A DNA stretch of 64,000 nt from Azonexus sp. R2A61. Lineage in GTDB: Bacteria > Pseudomonadota > Gammaproteobacteria > Burkholderiales > Rhodocyclaceae. The notes under the pieces were generated by a model. It made no database searches. It saw only the letters and a program-made list of their open reading frames with translations, and had not been told where the DNA came from. Both the position numbers and the translations under genes were made by a program. The stretch lies in the NCBI RefSeq assembly GCF_021401135.1, contig NZ_JACBFO010000005.1, positions 62,001 through 126,000 on the forward strand, written 5' to 3'. This document shows, piece by piece, positions 5,802 to 16,385 of this stretch (within the stretch, counting starts at the first letter, position 1; every line of letters starts with the position of its first letter).

Positions 5802-5994
5802 GTGATGCCTTGCTGAAGCGGGCCGCACACTTTGCCCGGGAAATGTTGCCGGCCGATGAAATGCCGTTCCGGCGACAGGCGTTTCGCGGCTTGCCCCAAG
5901 ACAGGGTAAAATTGCCACCCCAATCATGCCGCCGCAGGTTGTGCGCGGCAGCCATCCGGCCGACGTTCGTTGCCGGCTCCAAGAAAGTTTTCCC

Positions 5995-7290
5995 ATGAAG
6001 TTTTCCGACCTCGGCCTGAGCGCCGACATCCAGCGCGCTGTTGCCGAACAGGGCTATGACACGCCGACGCCGATCCAGCAGCAGGCCATTCCTGCTGTGC
6101 TTGCCGGCCACGACCTGATGGCCAGCGCCCAGACCGGTACCGGCAAGACCGCCGGGTTCACGCTGCCCATCCTGCAACGTCTGACGGCCGGTGCCAACGA
6201 CTGCCTGTCCCGCGTCGCCCGGACGCCGCGCGTGCTGGTGCTGACGCCGACGCGCGAACTGGCGATCCAGGTCGAGGAGAGCGTGCAGACCTACGGCAAA
6301 TACCTGCCGGTCAATTCGCTGGCCGTCTTCGGCGGCGTCGGCATCAATCCACAGATCGCCAATCTGCGTCGCGGTGTCGATATCCTGGTGGCGACGCCGG
6401 GCCGTCTGCTCGATCACGTGCAGCAGTCTACGGTCAACCTGTCCGGCATCGAGATTTTCGTCCTCGACGAAGCTGATCGCATGCTCGACATGGGCTTCAT
6501 CCGGGATATCCGCAAGATCATCGCGTTGTTGCCGAAACAGCGCCAGAACCTGTTGTTTTCGGCGACCTTTTCACCGGAAATCCGCGAACTGGCGGGGGGC
6601 TTGCTCGAGCAGCCGGTGTCGGTCGACGTTGCGCCGCGCAATACGGCGGCGGAGACGGTGACGCAGAAGGTCATCGAATGCAACCGCGAGCAGAAGAAGG
6701 AATTGCTCAAGCATTTGTTCACCACGCGCAGCCTGCATCAAGTGCTGGTCTTCGCCCGTACCAAGCATGGTGCCGATGCGCTGGCGCGCACGCTGGACAA
6801 GGCCGGCATCAAGGCGGCGGCGATTCATGGCGACAAATCGCAGGGCGCGCGCACGCGGGCCTTGTCGGAGTTCAAGGACGGCAAGCTGGCGGCACTGGTC
6901 GCCACCGACATCGCGGCACGCGGCATCGACATCGATGCCTTGCCCTACGTGATCAATTATGAACTGCCCAACGTGGCCGAGGATTACGTTCACCGCATCG
7001 GCCGTACCGGCCGCGCCGGCATGGAAGGCGAGGCGATCTCGCTGGTCTGTCACGACGAGCGTCCGCAGCTGAAGGACATCGAAAAGCTGATCCGGCGCAC
7101 GCTCGAGCGCATGGTGGTCGATGGCTTCGAGCAGGCTGCCGTGGCGGCGCCGCGCCCGGTCCAGCCGCCGCGCCAGCCGCGCAAACCGGCCGCCGCCGGC
7201 AATGCCGGCAAGAGCCGTCAGGGGAGTGGGAAAAATGCCCCCGCGGGCGGTCGACCGCAAGGGCATCATAGCGGCAAGCGTCATCACTGA
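5995..7290 (+). CDS. rhlE: DEAD-box RNA helicase, RhlE type
   Basis: ATP-dependent RNA helicase expected to act in rRNA maturation and RNA turnover. Visible motifs in order: Q motif ([10 protein letters not shown]), motif I (AQTGTGKT), Ia (PTRELAIQ), DEAD at residues 158-161, SAT (FSATFS), and motif VI ([10 protein letters not shown]). The first 60 residues closely follow the RhlE pattern. A basic, Gly/Pro-rich tail of about 45 residues follows the core and probably binds RNA. The ATG at 5995 has only a weak purine-rich site upstream. A possible -10 (TAAAAT) lies near 5908-5913 in the 193-base gap behind it. The last codons contain a copy of the GCGGTCGACCGC palindrome. Confidence 0.93.
7247..7258. 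repeat. Copy of GCGGTCGACCGC palindrome at the rhlE 3' end
   Basis: A perfect 12-bp palindrome that is also the core of the 32-bp palindrome at 26987-27018. It lies within the last 15 codons of rhlE and encodes part of the non-conserved basic tail. Whether it is a member of a dispersed repeat family is an inference. Confidence 0.5.
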
Positions 7291-7311
7291 TTGCTTGCCT
7301 GAGTAAAAGAT

Positions 7312-7359
7312 GGAAGGTCGGTGAAGACCTTCCTCGGCGGCTTCGGGGGAAGCAGCCGA
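7312..7359. terminator. Two hairpins between convergent rhlE and cytochrome gene
   Basis: First hairpin at 7312-7333: GGAAGGTC, six-base loop, GACCTTCC. Second at 7334-7359: a ten-base stem with one mismatch around a GGGGG-containing loop. Neither has a long U-run, so they are plausible but not textbook terminators. They fill most of the gap between the two convergent 3' ends. Confidence 0.5.
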
Positions 7360-7367
7360 AAAGCTGA

Positions 7368-8051
7368 TCAGGGGGCGAAGCGCGACATGTAGTCGGCGAC
7401 CGCCTGCAAATCCTTGTCGTCGTACGGCTTGATGGTGCTGACCATGTCGGGATTGGCATTGCGTCGATCGCCGTTGCGGATCAGGATCGATTCGCGCAGC
7501 AGATACTTGTAGTGTTGGCCGGAGACGCGCGGATAGAATCTGGCGCTGTCCCCCTGCCCCTTATTGCCGTGGCAGACGATGCAGTCGCGGGCATAGATTT
7601 CCTCGCCTCGCGCCAGGTTGTTGCCATCGCCCTTGCCATTGTCGGGAGGAACCGGCAGGGCCTGCAGGTAGACCGCAATGTCGGCGATTTCCTGGGGGGT
7701 CACGGCGTGCTTGTCGATGAACGGGAACATTTTCTTGTTGTCGCGCCGTCCGGCGCGCACATCGGTCATCTGTTTGATCAGTACCGTGGCATGTTGTCCG
7801 GCCAGCCGCGGATAGCTGCCGTCGGGACGTCCTAACGCGGTGGCTCGGTGGCAACCCTGGCAGATCTCGAAGGCGATTTCGCCGCGCAGGGCATCGCCGC
7901 GAGCGCTCAACGCCTGCAGCTTTTCCGCGTACATGGCGTTCCAGACATAGCCGTCGCTCTCGATACCGGCGGCGTGCGGCTGGTTTTCCTCGGCGCCGGT
8001 CTGGGTTGCTGCGGCGAGCAGCAGGGACAGGATGAACAGATGTTTTTTCAC
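7368..8051 (-). CDS. Diheme c-type cytochrome, c4-like
   Basis: Periplasmic electron carrier. The start is GTG with a good GGGGAGAAAG site; the N-terminus is a signal peptide (about 20 residues, ending TQTGA). Two class I cytochrome domains each carry one CXXCH heme site: CQGCH at 64-68 and CIVCH at 157-161. A 40-residue segment precedes the first heme, longer than in classical cytochrome c4. The repeated PRLAGQH / PRVSGQH motif marks the c4 family. It is the last gene of the decaheme/porin cluster, 16 bases after the other c4 gene, so it likely shuttles electrons between the conduit and inner-membrane enzymes. Confidence 0.88.
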   Translation of the reverse strand: MKKHLFILSLLLAAATQTGAEENQPHAAGIESDGYVWNAMYAEKLQALSARGDALRGEIAFEICQGCHRATALGRPDGSYPRLAGQHATVLIKQMTDVRAGRRDNKKMFPFIDKHAVTPQEIADIAVYLQALPVPPDNGKGDGNNLARGEEIYARDCIVCHGNKGQGDSARFYPRVSGQHYKYLLRESILIRNGDRRNANPDMVSTIKPYDDKDLQAVADYMSRFAP

Positions 8052-8067
8052 GAAGCTTTCTCCCCGA

Positions 8068-8670
8068 TTATTGCAGGCTGGCCATGTATTCGGCGACCGC
8101 TTGCATTTCCTGTTCGGTCATCCGTTCCGCCACGGCGCGCATGACCTTCCCTTTGTCGTTGTCCCTGACGCCGCTCTTGAAATCGTTCATCTGTTGCAGC
8201 GTGTAGGCCTGATGCTGACCGGCCAGCCTCGGGTAGCGGGCATTGCCCTGGGCGCGCGGTTGGTGGCAGCCCATGCAGCCGGGAACGCCGGTTTCGACAT
8301 TGCCGTCTTCGTAGATCGCCTTGCCGGCGGCGAGCAGGCCGGGGTCGCCGACCGTGCCGGGTGTCGGCTTTTGGGCTGCGTACCAGGCTGCCAGCGCCGG
8401 CACGTCCTGTTTGCTGAAGCTGTCCAGGATCGGTGCCATGACATCGTTCCGGCGTTTGCCGCTGAGGAATTCGTTCAGCTGCTTTTCGAGGTAGGTCGCA
8501 TGTTGACCGGACAGTTTCGGAAAGTTCGGTACCACGCTGTTGCCGCCTTCTCCGTGGCAGGCCATGCAGATGCTGCCGGCGAGTTCCCCGGCATCGGCGC
8601 TCCAACCCGGTGTGGCACCGAACAAGGCGCCGATGAACAGGCAAGCGCGGGTAATCTGGTGTCTTTTCAC
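8068..8670 (-). CDS. Cytochrome c4-type diheme cytochrome
   Basis: Periplasmic diheme cytochrome of 200 residues, the usual size for cytochrome c4. The start is taken as GTG at 8670, because it has a GGGGAA site six bases upstream and is followed at once by a signal peptide (KRHQITRACLFIGALFGA.., cleavage after WSA). Heme motifs are CMACH (35-39) and CMGCH (132-136), each with the downstream P-x-L-x-GQH signature. It starts 16 bases after the outer-membrane barrel gene. In this setting it probably carries electrons to or from the decaheme conduit; the direction cannot be read from sequence. Confidence 0.9.
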   Translation of the reverse strand: MKRHQITRACLFIGALFGATPGWSADAGELAGSICMACHGEGGNSVVPNFPKLSGQHATYLEKQLNEFLSGKRRNDVMAPILDSFSKQDVPALAAWYAAQKPTPGTVGDPGLLAAGKAIYEDGNVETGVPGCMGCHQPRAQGNARYPRLAGQHQAYTLQQMNDFKSGVRDNDKGKVMRAVAERMTEQEMQAVAEYMASLQ

Positions 8671-8686
8671 ATTAGTTCCCCAAAAG

Positions 8687-11407
8687 TCACAGCCGGACAT
8701 TGAGCAGGACGCCGAGCATGTTGATCCGGTAGCCCTGTGCGCCGCCGTCCATGAATACGCCGGCACCGGTGCCGATCGGGATGACGCCGCCCAGGCCGTT
8801 GTAATGCCAGTCGTCGATCTTGCCGCGTTCGTGTCGGTAGAGCAGGCGGACCAGAACCGATTTGCTGAGCGGCTTGAGCATGTTCAGTTCAAGGGTGTGC
8901 TGAGAGGTTTTCAGGTCCTCGAATCCGCTACCGGCCAGTGCCGCCTGTGCAGCGGCCATGTTGGCCGGGGTGCTGTAGCTGATCTCGGTGCGGCCCAGCG
9001 AGTAGGTGTAATTCATGTCGACCAGCACGTCGCGGATCATCTGCTTGACGCCGAGCCCGAAGGTGTCGCTGGTGTCGCGGTGCGTTTGCGACCAGAGATT
9101 GGCGGCGTTGAATACTCGTCCGGTATTCGGATCGGCGCACAAGTATTCGGCGTTGTCGATGGTCAAACCGTTATTGCCGATGTTGCAGTTGAAGCCGGCC
9201 ACCGCGCCGCTGGGCACGCCTTGTTGCTTGATCTTGCCTTGCTGCCGGGAATAGAAGGCGTAAACGTTGGTCTGGGCGCCGGGTTGCCAGGATAGATCAA
9301 GGTTGAGCGATCCCAGGCGCTGGTGGTCGACGCGTCCGTATTCGGAATCGGGGTATTTCATGTCCTTGAACTGGGTGGCAATGCCCAGATCGAGGTCGTG
9401 TCGAAGCATGTAGTTGAAGCGGGCATTGACGATGTTTTGGTTGCGGTCTGCCAGGTCGTATTTGCGTAGCCGCGAATTCATGTGCACCACGAAAGTCGTC
9501 AGATTGGTGCCGACAGCGGTGGACGGGTCCCACAGATAGCCGCTGTAGAAATCCGTATAGGGATGATGGGTCTGGTATTCGTCGCCGCGGCGTCGGTCAT
9601 GTTCGAAGGAAAGGCGCAGCGTGCCGTCGCGCACCCCCCGATTGACGTAGCCCAGCTTGTATTTGTCTTCCCAGGTTTCGTCGCGCTCCCGATGGTCGCG
9701 GTGATAGATTTCCCGCTCGTAGCCGGCGCTGATGCTGCTGGCCTTGCCAAGCCGGTAGTCGGCATCGACAGCGTAGATCAGTTGCTTGTAGTCGAACGGG
9801 ATATTGCGGATGTAGGCGTTGCCGGTCGCCGTCGAGCCGAAGGAGGTGCCGCTGCCGTCGTTGACCACGCGACCCCAGACGCCCGTACAGCCGTAGCCGC
9901 TGGCGGTATTCGCCGGATCGCCGCCGGCCGCGCTGTTGCAGAGCAGGAATTCGGTATGGTTTCTGGTTTCGTAATAGCGGACCTTGCCTTTGACGTTGAG
10001 CGTATCCAGCGGATTGAGCGACAGGCCGAGATCGATGAGCCTGGTGTCGATGCGCGCGTCGGCCGTCTTCCGGCTGAGGGAATCCGTGGTGTGCCAGTTG
10101 CTCAGGCCGGCGGCCACGACATTCGGATTGACCGTAAACGGAATCAGGTCGTCGTTCTGGCGCGAGGTGGCCAGCGAAACGACGGCGGTGAAGCGTCCTT
10201 TCCAGAGGTCCGGGAGTTGTCGGGCGTATTCTCCTTTGGCGCTGTAGTAGTCATTGTTCGGGTAGAGGTCGAGCCGTCCCTGCGAGAAGCCGCCGTTGGC
10301 CGCCGTGACCCCGTTGAGATTCAGCGCCCCGAAGTTGTTGACTGAGGTGATGTTGTCGAAGGTCAGCGTATCGATGTTATTTCGGAACCAGGAGGCGTTG
10401 ACCGTGAGATTGAAGGCGTTGAGCTTGTCGGCGTATTGCACCCCGGCGATCAGGTCGTTGGTCCGATAGTCGATCGGTTCGGCAATTTCGACGTTGGCAT
10501 TGGTGCCGCCGCCGCCCCAGGTAACGCCGAAGGGGCGAGCACCTTCGCGTTTTTCGCTGGTGAAGCTGGCGAAGAATTTCCATTTGTCCAGAAAGCTCAG
10601 GTCAGCCCGAACGCCGCCCTTGCTGCGCGTGATGCCGAGTCGCGATTCGCCGGTTGCGGCCAGTGCGGCGTTGCCGGCTGTGACGAATTCGCCTTGCGTC
10701 TGGACGGTGTTTGCGCCGACGCCATCAAGTGCCGGTGTCTTGATGCCGCCAACCCGCACACCGTTGGCCAGGGCGGTGGACGACAAGGTCAGATTGCCGG
10801 TGCCGACGCCGTCGTAAAGCGATCGGTAGCTGGTTGTGAAGGTATGTGTTGTCTGGTTGTAGAAGGCTTTGATTTTCCAGAGGTTGTACTGGCCGAATTG
10901 CAGGCTGTAGAACTGGTCTCCCTGACCGACGGCGCCACCGTTCGCTTCGATGAAACCGTTGTCTTGCGGGTTTTCCGCGTTGATGCCGAAACTGCTGATA
11001 TACGGGCCGTTCTCCAGATCCTTGTAACGTGTGAAGCCTTGCGATTTCCGGTCGCCATCCACGCCAATCACACCGGCTTCGACATGGCCCAGCAGGGACC
11101 ATTCGCCGACCTTCGTTTCGGCGGCCCTGACCTGGGTCGGCATCTCGTACATCTGGCCGGTTGGTGTGTGCGCGACCGGATCGTAGGTAGCGCCGACGCC
11201 TTCGCTGTCCGGCGGATTGCCATAGCGTGCCGGATCAACGCCTCTGGTATGCATTGCATTACCGATACTCGTGTCCTGGCCGACGCCGGAATCGGCCATG
11301 GCCGTTCCGTACTGGGCAATGGCCAGAGCGACCGAGGTGGCGATCAAGGTGCTACGGAAGTGCGTTTCCCCGTCGCCGGCGCCGTGCTGGACTGTGCGTA
11401 TTTTCAT
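8687..11407 (-). CDS. Decaheme-associated outer membrane protein, MtrB/PioB family
   Basis: Outer-membrane beta-barrel of 906 residues that should sheath the decaheme cytochrome encoded just upstream, so electrons can cross the outer membrane. A signal peptide (about 38 residues, ending TAMA) is followed by many alternating hydrophobic/polar strands rich in Tyr, Trp and Asp, and the chain ends in a short strand (GVLLNVRL) as barrels of this group do. The length is longer than Shewanella MtrB (about 700) and nearer to PioB/MtoB types. No N-terminal CXXC pair like that of Shewanella MtrB is present. The gene follows the decaheme gene by 17 bases. The family call is from architecture and context. 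Confidence 0.88.
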   Translation of the reverse strand: MKIRTVQHGAGDGETHFRSTLIATSVALAIAQYGTAMADSGVGQDTSIGNAMHTRGVDPARYGNPPDSEGVGATYDPVAHTPTGQMYEMPTQVRAAETKVGEWSLLGHVEAGVIGVDGDRKSQGFTRYKDLENGPYISSFGINAENPQDNGFIEANGGAVGQGDQFYSLQFGQYNLWKIKAFYNQTTHTFTTSYRSLYDGVGTGNLTLSSTALANGVRVGGIKTPALDGVGANTVQTQGEFVTAGNAALAATGESRLGITRSKGGVRADLSFLDKWKFFASFTSEKREGARPFGVTWGGGGTNANVEIAEPIDYRTNDLIAGVQYADKLNAFNLTVNASWFRNNIDTLTFDNITSVNNFGALNLNGVTAANGGFSQGRLDLYPNNDYYSAKGEYARQLPDLWKGRFTAVVSLATSRQNDDLIPFTVNPNVVAAGLSNWHTTDSLSRKTADARIDTRLIDLGLSLNPLDTLNVKGKVRYYETRNHTEFLLCNSAAGGDPANTASGYGCTGVWGRVVNDGSGTSFGSTATGNAYIRNIPFDYKQLIYAVDADYRLGKASSISAGYEREIYHRDHRERDETWEDKYKLGYVNRGVRDGTLRLSFEHDRRRGDEYQTHHPYTDFYSGYLWDPSTAVGTNLTTFVVHMNSRLRKYDLADRNQNIVNARFNYMLRHDLDLGIATQFKDMKYPDSEYGRVDHQRLGSLNLDLSWQPGAQTNVYAFYSRQQGKIKQQGVPSGAVAGFNCNIGNNGLTIDNAEYLCADPNTGRVFNAANLWSQTHRDTSDTFGLGVKQMIRDVLVDMNYTYSLGRTEISYSTPANMAAAQAALAGSGFEDLKTSQHTLELNMLKPLSKSVLVRLLYRHERGKIDDWHYNGLGGVIPIGTGAGVFMDGGAQGYRINMLGVLLNVRL

Positions 11408-11424
11408 GTCCCTCTCCCCCTTCG

Positions 11425-12384
11425 TTAGCGCTGGAAGCGCGAGCCGGCCGGATGATTGCTGCCGTGAATCTGCGAATGGCAGTTCTGGCAGGATCGGCTC
11501 ATCACGCGAGCATTCAGGTTGGCGCCGGCCACCCCGAGCTGGTTGGCCGTCTGGTTGGCGCTATAGAAGGCCGATGGGTGATTGGTGTTGGCGTGGCACT
11601 GTTGGCACAACTGCGGGCGGGCGGTCTGCAGCAGCTTGTCGTGGTTCGAGCCATGCGGCGAATGACAATTCATGCAGTTTTCCCGAACTGGCGCGTGTTC
11701 CCAGATGAAGGGGCCACGTTTTTCGGCGTGACAGGCGTAGCAGAGTTCGTTGACGCTGTCCGCCTTGAGCAGTGGCTTGGTTACCGAGCCGTGCGGGTTA
11801 TGACAATCGACACAGCTCATTTTCCCTTCAGGAACCGGCATGTGCGAGCGCTTGTGAAATTCGGAACGCTGCTGGCGGTGGCAGGTCTGGCAGGTTTCGG
11901 TGATGCTGGCTTTCTTGAGCAGCCCCTGCGCTGAAAATTTGGCCATCGGATTGTGGCAGTCGCTGCAGGAAAGCTTGTTTCCCGCGTGTGCGGAGCCCGG
12001 CCAATGCATCCGGTTGCCTCCCTGGTGACAGGTCAGGCATTGCGCCGTCTGCTTTTCGACCGGTGTTCCCCATTCCCTGGTGAAACCGATGATCAGGCTC
12101 TTGTTTTCCGCATCCTTGGCGTGCAGCGAACCCGGACCGTGACAGGCTTCGCAGACTTGACGCTCCTGATCGTTCTTCGGGTTCTGCCGGAATACTTTGG
12201 CGTGGAGGGTGTCCCGGAAATGTGCGTTTTCCTGGCCATGGCAGGCGATGCACTGCTTTTCGCCGATGTAGGTGGCCTTGTGCATCGGATCGTCGGCGGT
12301 CAGCGCATTCTTGCCGAGCATGCCAGCAATCATGACGAGGGCGACCAAGCCGAAGCGCACCGCAGATCTTGTGGTGAGTGCCAT
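11425..12384 (-). CDS. Decaheme c-type cytochrome, MtrA/DmsE type
   Basis: Periplasmic decaheme cytochrome that inserts into the partner barrel and conducts electrons through the outer membrane. The start MALTTRSAVR gives 319 residues with a signal sequence (LVALVMIAGML); GGAGG lies 11 bases upstream. Exactly ten CXXCH motifs are visible, at residues 45, 78, 116, 140, 165, 191, 215, 237, 260 and 299. Size and heme count match MtrA, PioA, MtoA and DmsE. An in-frame ATG at 12459 would add 25 residues without a signal-like character and is less likely. No gene for a surface cytochrome (MtrC/OmcA) or quinol oxidase (CymA) is adjacent. Confidence 0.92.
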   Translation of the reverse strand: MALTTRSAVRFGLVALVMIAGMLGKNALTADDPMHKATYIGEKQCIACHGQENAHFRDTLHAKVFRQNPKNDQERQVCEACHGPGSLHAKDAENKSLIIGFTREWGTPVEKQTAQCLTCHQGGNRMHWPGSAHAGNKLSCSDCHNPMAKFSAQGLLKKASITETCQTCHRQQRSEFHKRSHMPVPEGKMSCVDCHNPHGSVTKPLLKADSVNELCYACHAEKRGPFIWEHAPVRENCMNCHSPHGSNHDKLLQTARPQLCQQCHANTNHPSAFYSANQTANQLGVAGANLNARVMSRSCQNCHSQIHGSNHPAGSRFQR

Positions 12385-12620
12385 GCTTTCTGTTTCCTCC
12401 ATCGGGGCTTCGTCGCAACGAATTCTCCAGGCCAGCGCCTGGAGAAGCCCCTCCTCCATGTTTATGTCTCTTCAATCGCTACGCGGATAGCGTGCAACCG
12501 GCTTTTTTTGTCACAGGGAGGTTTTTCCGCCGACCTCCCTGGCAGGCAGAATAGAGGAGGGGAGGAAGGTCGGTCTTGCCGGAAAGTGCACGATTAGTTG
12601 CCTGTAAGTGCACAAGGCGT
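12385..12620 (-). promoter_or_regulatory. Control region ahead of the decaheme/porin operon
   Basis: This 236-base gap between the regulator stop and the decaheme start holds several elements. Two exact direct repeats AAGTGCAC lie at 12584-12591 and 12606-12613, 22 bp apart start to start (two helical turns), as AraC-type sites often are. A 9-bp inverted repeat with a ten-base loop spans 12514-12541; it has no U-run on either strand. An 8-bp stem with a CAGC loop lies at 12425-12444, probably in the leader RNA. A possible minus-strand -35 (TTGCAC) is near 12491-12496 but no convincing -10 follows. The operator role is inferred. Confidence 0.45.
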
Positions 12621-13580
12621 TCAGCGGGTAGCGCCCCGGTTTTCTTCGCGAAATTCACGCGGAGAGCGTCCAAAACGCTTCTGGAACAGCCGGCTGAAGT
12701 GCGCGGCATCATTGAATCCGTAAGCGTAGGCAATCTGCGCGATGGTCCATCCTTGCGCCGAGCCGAGTTCGAGTTTGCAACGTTGAAGGCGCCGTTCCTG
12801 GACCCATTGCATCAGATGCAAGGGTTCGTCCCGGAACAGGCTGTGCAGATAGCGGGGTGACAGCCCGACGGCCTGGGATATCTTGGCAACGCTGAGTTCG
12901 GGGTCGGCGAGATGGGTTTCGATAAACTGGCGAATCCGTTGCCGATGGTAGGTGCGTAGCCGGGAGGATTCGGCGCTTCCACCATCTTCCTTGGCGCCAA
13001 CTGCCGATCCGAGGAGTCCGAGCAGCATGCGGCCGGCTGCGCTACGGCAACTGCGGCCGAGCTGTTCCGCGTTGCGCTGGAACGAAACCGCCCAGTCCAG
13101 CAACATGCCGGCGGGGCCACCGTCGGCGGCCAGAGGTTTGCCTGCCTGGCTTTCCCAATCCGGGCAGTATTCCGAGAGCAAGGATCCGGGAAAGGCCAGA
13201 ATCATGTGGGTGGTGTTGTCCGGGTGAAAGATCATTCCCTTGTCAGCCAACGGAAAGACGCAGATGCTGCGCGGTTCCATCAGCATTTCCGGATGTCCCT
13301 CGTGGCGTCGGACGCAGTAGCCTTCGATATTGATGTCGGCGAAGGCATAGGTGCTTTCGCTGTTTTGCCAACTGGCCCGAAATGCCGAGCCCCGGCGCGT
13401 ACCGATGGCAACCTCGCCCAGCGACCAGGCTGCGATCGATTGTTCGAAAGCCTGGTCACCAAAGGGCTCCACCCGACTGTCGACGCCGAGGTGTTCCCGC
13501 ATGTGCGCCGCCCACCAGTCCGGTTTGTCGCCGGCTGCGACGTGTTCCGTACTGAATTCGATACGTTCTTGCGCAGACAT
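12621..13580 (-). CDS. AraC-family transcriptional regulator
   Basis: DNA-binding regulator of 319 residues. Residues 1-200 resemble the AraC-binding-like sensor domain found in activators such as those of the PF14525 type. The C-terminal AraC/XylS DNA-binding domain has its two helix-turn-helix units near 229-250 and 278-303, with the typical IAYAYGFNDAAHFSRLFQKRFG signature split across the second. The start at 13580 has a strong GGGGAGGGGG site. It is encoded just upstream of and in the same direction as the decaheme operon, so it is the natural candidate for its regulator. The effector is unknown. Confidence 0.9.
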   Translation of the reverse strand: MSAQERIEFSTEHVAAGDKPDWWAAHMREHLGVDSRVEPFGDQAFEQSIAAWSLGEVAIGTRRGSAFRASWQNSESTYAFADINIEGYCVRRHEGHPEMLMEPRSICVFPLADKGMIFHPDNTTHMILAFPGSLLSEYCPDWESQAGKPLAADGGPAGMLLDWAVSFQRNAEQLGRSCRSAAGRMLLGLLGSAVGAKEDGGSAESSRLRTYHRQRIRQFIETHLADPELSVAKISQAVGLSPRYLHSLFRDEPLHLMQWVQERRLQRCKLELGSAQGWTIAQIAYAYGFNDAAHFSRLFQKRFGRSPREFREENRGATR

Positions 13581-13807
13581 ACCCCCTCCCCTGGGCAAGC
13601 AAGCGGTGGCGGAGGTTCCTTGAGGAATTTTTTGACTGACGCCGAGCCGATTGCGGGTCTCAAAGCTTTTCTGCGCTGAACTCCTAGATGTTTCTTGCCT
13701 TTGTGCCAAGGCTTCCGAAAACTGCCGCAGACACTAGCGCGCCCGAAGAGAAAAACATAATTGTTTTTTTCTTTCGCAGTAATAGCGTTCGACTATAGTG
13801 AATCGAT
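13581..13807. other. Intergenic region between recQ 3' end and the AraC-type gene
   Basis: These 227 bases hold the leader of the AraC-type gene (minus strand). They include an AT-rich block near 13745-13810 (runs of A and T with an imperfect inverted repeat at about 13747-13779), unusual in this GC-rich window, which likely contains the promoter. No gene was found. Confidence 0.4.
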
Positions 13808-15649
13808 TTATGTATTAGGAATTCTTGTTGCCGAGTTCTCGTCGCGGATCAGTGCCAGCAATTCCTCGCCGTAATGTTCGATCTTGGCCGAACCCATGCC
13901 GCTGATCCCGGCCAGCAGCCCGTGGCTGACCGGGCGCGATTCGGCGAGTTCGCGCAGGGTCTTGTCGTGCAGGATGACGTAGGCCGGGACGCCTTGTTCG
14001 CGTGCCGTGTCGGCTCGCCACTTGCGCAGCAACTGGAAAAGCGCCTCGTCGGCTGGTGAGAGGTCGCTGATCGGCACACTACGGTTGCCGCGCGGCGTGG
14101 TCGGACGCTTTTTCGTCGGGCGGCGCAGGGAGACGGTTCGCTGTCCCTTGAGCACATGGCGGGCCTCCTCGGTCAGGCGCAGCGCTCCGTGCTCGGTCAT
14201 GTCCACGTGTACCAGGCCGGCAGCGGCCAACTGACGGAAGATGCTCTTCCAGTCACGTTCGTCCAGATCGGCGCCGACGCCGAAGGTTGGCAACTGGTCG
14301 TGCCCCCACTGGCGCATCTTGTCGCTGGCCTTGCCGCGCAGGACATCGATCAGATGTCCGACGCCGAAGCGCATGCCGGTCCGGTAGATGGCCGACAATG
14401 CCTTTTGCGCCGCCTGGGTACCGTCCCAGAGTTCGGGCGGTTCGGCGCAGACGTCGCAGTTGTTGCAGGGTTCGCGCGCTTCGCCGAAATAGTTGAGCAG
14501 GACCTGGCGCCGGCAGCGCGGTGCTTCGCAATAGGCGAGCAGTGCGGTCAACCGTTGCGCTTCAAGGATTTTCTGGTGCTCGGCGGCGGCCGATTCGGCG
14601 ATCCGTGCATGCTGCAGTGCGACGTCCTGCATGCCGTAGGCCATCCAGGCTTCGGAGGGCTCACCGTCGCGTCCGGCTCGCCCGGTTTCCTGATAGTAGG
14701 CTTCGATGCTCTTCGGCAGGTCGAGATGGGCGACGAAGCGGACGTCGGGCTTGTCGACGCCCATGCCGAAGGCGATCGTCGCGCACATCACCAGGCCTTC
14801 CTCGCGCAGGAAACGGCGTTGGTTGGCAGCACGCTCCTCGGCCGGCAGGCCAGCATGGTAAGCCAGCGCCGGATAACCCTGGGTACTCAACCAGGCGGCG
14901 GTTTCCTCGACCTTCTTGCGCGACAGGCAATAGACGATGCCGGCCTGGCCCTTGCGGCCGGCCAGGAATCCGAGCAGTTGCTGGCGGGCATTGTCCTTTT
15001 CGACGACGGTGTAGCGGATGTTCGGCCGGTCGAAGCTGGACAGGAAAACGCGTGCTTCGGCCAGACCGAGACGTTGCTGCATCTCTTGCTGCGTCGCCCG
15101 GTCGGCGGTGGCGGTCAGCGCGATGCGCGGGACCGCCGGGTAGCGCTCGTGCAGCGCTGACAATTGCAGATATTCGGGGCGGAAATCGTGTCCCCATTGC
15201 GAAACGCAGTGCGCTTCGTCGATGGCGAACAAGGCCAGCCTGCCTGCCTCGTTCAGGGCATCGAGCATGGCCAGTGTGCGGTCGAGCATCAATCGCTCGG
15301 GGGCGATGTAAACCAGGTCGAGCGTGCCGTTGAACATGGCCTGCTCGACGGCTTGGGCGGTTCGCCAGTCGAGCGTCGAGTTGAGGACGGCGGCCTTGAC
15401 GCCAAGTTGGGTCAGGGCGTCCACCTGGTCCTGCATCAGCGCAATCAGCGGCGAAACGACGATGGCACAACCGGTGCGCAGCAGAGCGGGAATCTGGTAG
15501 CACAGGCTCTTGCCGCCGCCGGTCGGCATCAATACCAGGGCATCGCCGCCGCGGGCAACGTGCTCGATGATCTCGGCCTGCGCGCCGCGGAAGGCCGGGT
15601 AGCCGAATACGTCGCGCAGGACGTCGAGGGCGGAGCTTGCGGTCGACAT
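13808..15649 (-). CDS. recQ: ATP-dependent DNA helicase RecQ
   Basis: 3'-5' DNA helicase of recombination and fork repair. Visible in order: Walker A ([12 protein letters not shown]), DEAH box followed by [13 protein letters not shown], helicase C-terminal motifs with [10 protein letters not shown], the zinc site (C-x-x-x-x-CRRQ..CNNCDVC), winged helix, and a C-terminal HRDC domain. It has 613 residues, the typical RecQ length. The start at [11 protein letters not shown] lies four bases after the lpxH stop, so its ribosome site sits inside lpxH and translation is probably coupled. It is the last gene of the six-gene minus-strand operon that begins at 19847. Confidence 0.96.
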
Positions 15650-15653
15650 CGCG

Positions 15654-16385
15654 TCAGGCCGGATTTTCCGGCAGCACGGCTTCGCGTCGTAGCGTCTCGC
15701 CGTCCCAGACCAGGCAGTCGCCACGGTCCTCGTGCCAGTCGCCGAGCACCCAGCGTTCGACATGGATGCCGTCGACGATATGGTCGTGCGTCGCCGGCTG
15801 GTGGGTATGGCCGTGGATGAAGGTGGCGTAGCCGTGTTCGCGCAGGAAATCGTCGGTGGCGGCCGGCGTCAGGTCTTCATAGGTGTTGCGGCGTTGCTTG
15901 TTGCGGGCGCTGCGCCAGCGGATGTAGCTGCCAAGCAGGCGGCGGAACCAGCGCGGTCGGGCCAGCATGCGCGTCAGCCAGGCCGGATCACGGACTTTTC
16001 GCCGATAGGCGACGTAGGCCGGGTCGTCCAGACACAGCGCATCGCCGTGCGATAGCACGAAGGACCAGGAAGGAAGGTCGAGTGGGCAGGGATCGGGCAG
16101 CAGCGTGACGCCGCTGGCGGCGGCAAAAGCCGGGCCGAGCGCGAAGTCGCGGTTGCCGTGCATGACGTGGATTTTCAGGCCCTGGTCGCTGGCCTTGCGC
16201 AGCGCGCCGATGATGTTGCGGTGCCAGGCATCGTCGACATCGTCGCCGACCCACACTTCGAACAGGTCGCCGAGAATGTACAGCGCCTCCGCCTGGCGTG
16301 CTCGCCCGGCGAGAAAGCCGAGGAACAAAGCAGTCGCCCCGGGGGACCGGGGCGACAGGTGGAGATCGGAAATGAAAAGGATCAA
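15654..16385 (-). CDS. lpxH: UDP-2,3-diacylglucosamine diphosphatase
   Basis: Metallophosphoesterase of lipid A synthesis that releases UMP from UDP-2,3-diacylglucosamine at the inner face of the inner membrane. The calcineurin-like metal motifs are clear: FISDLHL at the N-terminus, [20 protein letters not shown], and HGHTHQPA near the C-terminus. The protein has 243 residues, as LpxH usually does. Its start overlaps the ppiB stop by four bases. The presence of lpxH fits a Gram-negative betaproteobacterium. Confidence 0.96.

Follow-up and report, generated by a model that had tools for sequence, protein, structure and literature searches.

The window analyzed here is a stretch of 64,000 nucleotides from Azonexus sp. 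R2A61 (contig NZ_JACBFO010000005.1, positions 62,001 to 126,000), and it contains a minus-strand cluster of four genes that encode, in this order, a decaheme cytochrome of the MtrA type, an outer-membrane barrel of the MtrB/PioB type and two diheme cytochromes of the c4 type, called c4a and c4b below. The decaheme gene (11425..12384) specifies 319 residues with a signal-peptide-like start and ten CXXCH motifs, the first of them at residue 45; a farther in-frame start at 12459 would give 344 residues. The barrel gene (8687..11407) codes for 906 residues, with about 26 long strands in the predicted model. The genes for c4a (8068..8670, 200 residues) and c4b (7368..8051, 227 residues) both start with GTG and contain two CXXCH motifs each. 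The successive gaps are 17, 16 and 16 bases, and the cluster accounts for 10 + 2 + 2 = 14 hemes. A sequence-only reading of this DNA had listed a ten-CXXCH cytochrome, a 906-residue barrel 17 bases after it and two diheme c4-like proteins, all codirectional and with 14 hemes in total, and each of these elements was confirmed. That inventory was right for the four genes and overlooked two features, namely an AraC-type transcriptional regulator gene upstream on the same strand (12621..13709, with a TTG start as called; an inner ATG would shorten the protein) and a terminator-like hairpin 3' of c4b (7312..7333, minus strand). The hairpin is a consensus match only, in a region with 9 such hairpins against 8.2 expected and hence no excess, and a promoter scan gave one site against 1.4 expected. 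The same gene order was found again in other genomes, and the cluster is therefore not a chance arrangement.

Family models and solved structures agreed on the nature of the four proteins. The decaheme scored 267 bits with TIGR03508 (cut-off, 192.2) and matched 6r2q_A, from an Mtr complex, with an E value of 3.7e-68. The barrel scored 244 bits with TIGR03509 (cut-off, 240) and 328 bits with Pfam MtrB_PioB. By sequence, the decaheme and the adjacent barrel can thus be assigned to the MtrAB/PioAB/MtoAB superfamily of conduits. Both small cytochromes matched Pfam Cytochrom_C and, among solved structures, cytochrome c4 (E values of 1.2e-42 for c4a and 8e-22 for c4b). A window scan found a candidate Met ligand at both hemes of c4a and of c4b in 15 of 15 rows each; by alignment column, the residue was present in 15/15 rows for three hemes and in 93% for heme 1 of c4b. 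The two proteins can be classed as two-domain diheme His/Met cytochromes c4, the ligands being assigned by conservation only.

The decaheme was placed in a tree of 75 chosen rows, comprising 23 from the clade that includes the window (the main clade below), 7 sisters, 11 PioA-type rows and 34 others; eight long-branched or redundant rows and those shorter than 290 residues had been left out beforehand, and an earlier tree held 92 rows. Main clade, sisters and PioA-type rows united at 99/96, forming the PioA side of the tree, with the PioA-type rows at 100/98 and the main clade plus sisters at 99/96. The window decaheme is therein sister to the PioA clade of operons bearing a high-potential iron-sulfur protein (HiPIP) and lies outside that clade. 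The other side gathered 33 rows at 96/93, and a long-branched CymA-type row (L228) fell between the two. The other side contains MtrC-bearing loci, CymA-bearing loci and one row with 638 bits to MtrA of Shewanella baltica. MtoAB was represented by a synteny proxy, that is, loci with a CymA-like tetraheme cytochrome, and DmsE at most by Shewanella-type sequences. Constraining the main clade with a six-row block, four rows of which are labeled CymA, was rejected by the approximately unbiased test (p-AU, 4.6e-12), as was constraining it with the Shewanella-type block (p-AU, 0.0016); these constraints also split other groups and are hence stricter than they appear. The PioAB/MtoAB-like layout proposed in the sequence-only reading therefore holds as far as the PioA side is concerned, but a joint group of PioAB and MtoAB is not supported, since 6 of the 7 CymA-associated rows belong to the other side. 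A grouping of the decaheme with DmsE or MtrA, together with MtrC and CymA encoded elsewhere, was named in that reading as the outcome that would count against it, and no such grouping was obtained. A contig labeled Desulfovibrionaceae (L092) carries the decaheme that is sister to that of the window (99/93) and a second decaheme of the other side; it is possibly misbinned.

Related loci were collected from two sources. Named genomes were scanned, and the best 80 of 236 places yielded 79 loci, which are hence near relatives; evenly drawn genomes gave wider rows, with matches in 27 of 370 genomes of the class and 24 of 397 of the phylum, plus 12 of 297 in one order. The hosts among the named loci are Thauera linaloolentis, T. 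butanivorans, Pseudothauera, Rhodocyclus tenuis and Rubrivivax gelatinosus; further hosts are Thiocapsa roseopersicina, Thiocapsa KS1, Thiococcus pfennigii and metagenome-assembled genomes (MAGs) of Azonexus and Opitutaceae. For synteny counts, two exact duplicates were dropped, at least 4.4 kb downstream was required and the window was included, which left 58 of the 80 main-clade loci. A cytochrome was called MtrC-like if it had at least 8 CXXCH motifs and more than 500 residues and was encoded within 9 kb, the DNA compared being often shorter than that. As related loci are not independent, a Fisher test on provisional counts was not used. The azurin and HiPIP profiles were seeded from matches on the PioA side, and 8 of 9 azurin hits and 8 of 10 HiPIP hits are the seeds themselves; their identity was checked by Pfam for seven sequences and by solved structures for one of each.

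The two sides of the tree differ in the genes that accompany the conduit. The 58 main-clade loci have two c4 genes in 36 cases, one c4 gene in 2, an azurin-type gene in 8 and a HiPIP-like gene in 1, with any such carrier in 45; carriers were present in 4/8 sister loci, 8/10 Pio loci and 2/35 loci of the other side, which makes 57/76 on the PioA side against 2/35. MtrC-like cytochromes showed the reverse distribution (0/58 in the main clade, 0/8 in the sisters, 1/10 in Pio loci, this one being L316, and 18/35 on the other side, or 1/76 against 18/35 overall), and CymA-like proteins were counted in 3/58, 0/8, 0/10 and 9/35, respectively. Three main-clade loci of the Thauera type have an upstream tetraheme gene whose start lies 3.3 to 3.4 kb ahead of the decaheme gene's end, and at L099 the upstream four-heme protein is preceded by a 148-residue two-heme frame. 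L163, counted as having no downstream carrier, has both c4 genes upstream. The four sister loci with a carrier each have one c4 gene, to which L285 adds an azurin and L229 a HiPIP and a cupredoxin; at L229, cupredoxin, c4 and HiPIP follow one another after the barrel (12265-13770). Among PioA-type loci with enough sequence, the HiPIP gene follows the barrel in 8/10, and the one such HiPIP compared with solved structures matched PioC (6xyv). In MAGs of Opitutaceae and other Verrucomicrobia, an azurin-type gene stands directly after the barrel (L157:11567-12019, L134:11759-12235, L141:11815-12285 and similar loci).

Mapped on the tree with three states, partner type changed 14 times, or 3 times if loci with neither kind were omitted. 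In this mapping two rows of the other side were scored as carrier bearing, though one of them (L212) also has an MtrC-like gene, and so were the Thauera rows with an upstream tetraheme gene. The suggestion that the c4-c4 pair might be a lineage-specific variant is borne out as to its being a variant and not as to its being confined to one lineage, as two c4 genes occur in 36/58 main-clade loci. Of the 71 loci at 58% or more for which 2 kb of upstream sequence was available, a count that includes the window and the two duplicates, 23 have an upstream AraC-type gene in the same orientation; the other groups gave 0/40, 0/9 and 0/7. Some loci hold more than one conduit: in Thauera linaloolentis, another decaheme-barrel pair, accompanied by a monoheme gene (L036:812-4335), lies about 3 kb from the c4-c4 cluster, and its decaheme falls on the other side of the tree; a Nitrosomonadales MAG (L109) has two MtrAB-type pairs in tandem.

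The c4 tree was built from 48 of 96 sequences; no more than four of its members were other c4-like proteins, and these came from the source genome. Sampled in this way, without the c4 proteins of genomes at large, c4b formed one clade of 15 conduit-linked rows at 100/100, and c4a was not a single clade. The diheme carriers encoded beside MtrC formed a separate clade at 100/100.

The remainder of the source genome was searched for partners. It encodes one barrel of the MtrB/PioB family, and in a search with a paired-CXXCH model the decaheme alone exceeded the cut-off; weak matches pointed to an octaheme cytochrome that has a hydrophobic stretch at its C terminus and belongs to the tetrathionate reductase family (TIGR04315, 633 bits; L230:8391-10079, corresponding to C7:351390-353078 of the same genome). 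The surface cytochrome that the sequence-only reading had proposed to look for gave no match to the MtrC/OmcA family TIGR03507 at E values up to 10, a family search that unrelated surface cytochromes would escape. Its statement that no CymA-like quinol oxidase is encoded is correct for the cluster; elsewhere the genome has, besides the decaheme, one protein of the NapC/NirT family, which does not reach the curated cut-offs of the NapC models and whose neighbors resemble nap genes, judged from size and sequence start only. Genes for RuBisCO, phosphoribulokinase, SoxB, SoxA, SoxZ, SoxY and SoxC were found, the Sox genes over their cut-offs, as well as a CbbR-like regulator under its cut-off and further c4-like proteins. 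The RuBisCO match is presumably form II, from the usual meaning of the model. Two further stretches (L319 and L322; C6 910-930 kb and C8 221-241 kb) hold a Sox cluster with a c4 gene nearby and a cluster of Calvin-cycle genes that includes RuBisCO; the Sox cluster also has a monoheme gene and an FccB-looking gene of 425 residues with no NCBIfam match at 1e-30. By its gene content the organism is likely a facultative sulfur lithoautotroph.

That the genes encode an electron conduit through the outer membrane, one from the PioAB side of the MtrAB superfamily, is strongly supported. In it, the decaheme would sit in the barrel and conduct electrons across the membrane. An outside donor, which might be Fe(II) itself, a mineral containing it, a reduced shuttle or another cell, would reduce the decaheme, c4a and c4b would take the electrons through the periplasm, and a cbb3-type oxidase or another high-potential acceptor would receive them. 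Inward flow from donor through decaheme and c4 to oxidase is in our view the probable direction, because there is neither an MtrC-like cap nor a dedicated quinol dehydrogenase and because soluble carriers of high-potential families recur as partners in this branch. The c4, azurin and HiPIP families are known for high potentials, and c4-type carriers are generally more oxidizing than MtrA-type decahemes. Transfer from a low-potential decaheme to such carriers would be downhill, which favors uptake. RuBisCO, phosphoribulokinase, the Sox genes and the lack of an MtrC family match in the source genome were also counted for uptake. Entries 8smr and 8snh combine a cbb3 oxidase subunit with the sequence of the closest solved c4 (6q2u), which suggests a cbb3 oxidase as acceptor. 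We infer the formation of the complex, its direction, donor and acceptor, and control of the cluster by the AraC-type protein.

Several observations weigh against uptake. No recognized downstream carrier was found in 13/58 main-clade and 4/8 sister loci, and the absence of azurin and HiPIP from the other side was less strictly tested than that of c4, given the seeded profiles. The NapC/NirT-type protein could serve as a quinol dehydrogenase. Others come from the literature; papers are cited below by their PMC numbers. HiPIP or c4 has been reported beside MtrAB at loci that also have OmcA, so the carrier rule has exceptions (PMC8877833), and conduits of the Mtr type can run both ways (PMC8805035, PMC10734462). 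The split in our decaheme tree differs from a report in which PioA and MtoA form no function-specific clade and group with MtrA of complete MtrCAB modules (PMC8805035); the sample there consisted of MtrCAB loci plus a few references and apparently did not include the main clade. The Met scan was equally positive in 10/10 PdsA-like carriers beside MtrC, and PdsA, a diheme carrier that works in the MtrCAB pathway alongside CymA or NetBCD, serves export (PMC8805035). Since PdsA belongs to an export pathway, soluble diheme carriers alone are no proof of uptake, and the argument for inward flow that the sequence-only reading had based in part on them is weak. Finally, an Azonexus isolate gave an anodic, outward current (PMC4876122).

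Outward flow is the alternative to be taken most seriously, although we consider it unlikely. Quinol would then be oxidized by bc1 or by the NapC/NirT-type protein, and c4a and c4b would pass the electrons through the decaheme to a high-potential acceptor outside, for instance an electrode, Mn(IV) or humics, much as PdsA serves MtrCAB (PMC8805035). The NapC/NirT-type gene, the tetraheme gene upstream in three Thauera-type loci and the current of Azonexus WE2-4 at 522 mV versus the standard hydrogen electrode (PMC4876122) are consistent with it, and so is the score of c4a with the PdsA model, 70 bits, though this is below the cut-off of 330, as are the 34 bits of c4b. However, none of the 58 main-clade loci has an MtrC-like cap in the DNA within 9 kb, or often less, that was compared, the window-type c4 proteins are separated in the tree from the PdsA-like carriers encoded next to MtrC (100/100), and the Pio system of the sister clade serves uptake. 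Export would also be uphill if c4 is more oxidizing than the decaheme.

It may also be that the conduit works in either direction and brings the periplasmic cytochrome pool into equilibrium with redox material outside the cell, for redox balance and not as a dedicated respiration. The published reversibility of Mtr-type conduits (PMC8805035, PMC10734462), the patchy accessory distribution (4/76 genomes of the genus; see below) and the 13/58 loci lacking a carrier fit this proposal, but the tight order of four genes and the c4b clade suggest a defined path, and we regard it as improbable. That the conduit feeds an extracellular reductase, as DmsEF does with DmsAB, is very improbable: the decaheme passes a model named for the DmsE family, which also takes MtrC- and HiPIP-linked decahemes, but there is no DmsAB molybdenum reductase or other reductase gene in or beside the cluster, whose neighbors are of the AraC, RecQ and RhlE types, and grouping of the clade with the Shewanella-type block was rejected (p-AU, 0.0016).

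A broader proposal can be made, which we put forward as doubtful speculation. The PioA side would consist of plug-in uptake conduits whose exit is a HiPIP, an azurin or one or two c4 proteins, and partner type would predict direction; in the c4-c4 form, c4a would lead downhill to cbb3 and c4b to a bc1 running in reverse for NADH formation, a division of flow like the one proposed for Cyc1 and CycA1 of Acidithiobacillus. If so, Pio-like uptake would occur in many nonphototrophs, such as Thauera, relatives of Azonexus and Opitutaceae.

The cluster represents an accessory insertion, and the site that it occupies is variable. Its flanks are housekeeping genes, with purF, an O-succinylhomoserine sulfhydrylase gene and an RhlE-type RNA helicase gene (5926..7290, plus strand; under the cut-off of the RhlE models) on one side and the genes for RecQ helicase (13808..15763, minus strand) and LpxH on the other, both helicase genes lying outside the module. 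A related barrel (E values up to 1e-20) is encoded in 4 of 76 genomes of the genus, the source genome included; the barrels of the three other congeners are 35 to 47% identical to that of the window, and the best in other genera of the family reaches 53%. In 17 chosen congener stretches around the RhlE-type gene, decaheme and barrel were absent throughout; RecQ was within reach in 9, at a distance of 0.6 to 6.1 kb, and the two shortest intervals hold other single open frames. The interval between the two helicase genes (7291-13807 in the window; L072 and L090 in congeners) varies within the genus and contains different short inserts. The accessory status rests on distribution, because the composition is not foreign (GC content of 0.602, against a mean of 0.616 and a standard deviation of 0.015 in 6.5-kb windows). 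Viral contigs scanned with decaheme-derived patterns gave no matching stretch. In one congener (L087), two MtrAB-type pairs lie side by side and divergent.

Parts of this picture have precedents. Homologues of pio and mto in Thauera and Rubrivivax were reported before (PMC10654088), c4 or HiPIP beside MtrAB has been taken as a sign of Fe(II) oxidation in one sentence on Ectothiorhodospiraceae (PMC8877833), and versions of MtrA for uptake and export have been reported as not cleanly separable (PMC10734462, PMC8805035). We found no description of the c4-c4 clade, the azurin form or the carrier rule in the open-license literature searched, subscription papers being outside its scope. The pairing of one supported side of the tree with soluble carriers and of the other with MtrC and CymA provides a testable rule for genomes. 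If uptake is true, Pio-like electron uptake would extend well beyond phototrophs, into Thauera and lake Verrucomicrobia.

Among known systems, Acidithiobacillus ferrooxidans likewise has two c4 proteins in one Fe(II) pathway, Cyc1 and CycA1, one directed to the oxidase and one to bc1 (PMC10654088), but these receive their electrons from Cyc2 and rusticyanin, with no conduit of the MtrAB type involved. The MtrCAB loci of Vibrio and Aeromonas with PdsA likewise encode a diheme periplasmic carrier with MtrAB; they differ in having MtrC and a quinol dehydrogenase, and their diheme carriers form a clade of their own, apart from the window c4 proteins. In Ectothiorhodospiraceae, MtrAB with c4 or HiPIP alongside is reported to come with OmcA, whereas the window cluster has no MtrC/OmcA surface decaheme, and the clade, the c4-c4 pair and the azurin form are not described in the passages concerned (PMC8877833). 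MtoABD-CymA (ImoA) of Sideroxydans and MtoABCD of Dechloromonas aromatica likewise combine decaheme and barrel without MtrC and are proposed to act in uptake; Mto systems include an inner-membrane cytochrome and the monoheme MtoD (PMC5566968), the latter proposed to feed a terminal oxidase on account of its high potential (PMC13390432), whereas CymA/ImoA, MtoC and MtoD are all absent from the window cluster. PioABC, of the sister clade, shares the decaheme, the barrel and a soluble high-potential carrier in an operon without MtrC and CymA, and PioC has been shown experimentally to pass electrons from PioA to the reaction center (PMC10304953). It has the HiPIP PioC where the window has the c4 pair, with no HiPIP profile match downstream of the window decaheme. 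The decaheme measures 471 to 516 residues in 5 of 11 PioA-type rows and 334 to 388 in the other 6, compared with 319 and no long N-terminal extension in the window, and the barrel 727 to 868 residues in 9 of 10 Pio-type loci (a set including L276), with one called at 958, compared with 906. PioABC belongs to phototrophic Fe(II) oxidizers, whereas the hosts of the window type include nonphototrophs.

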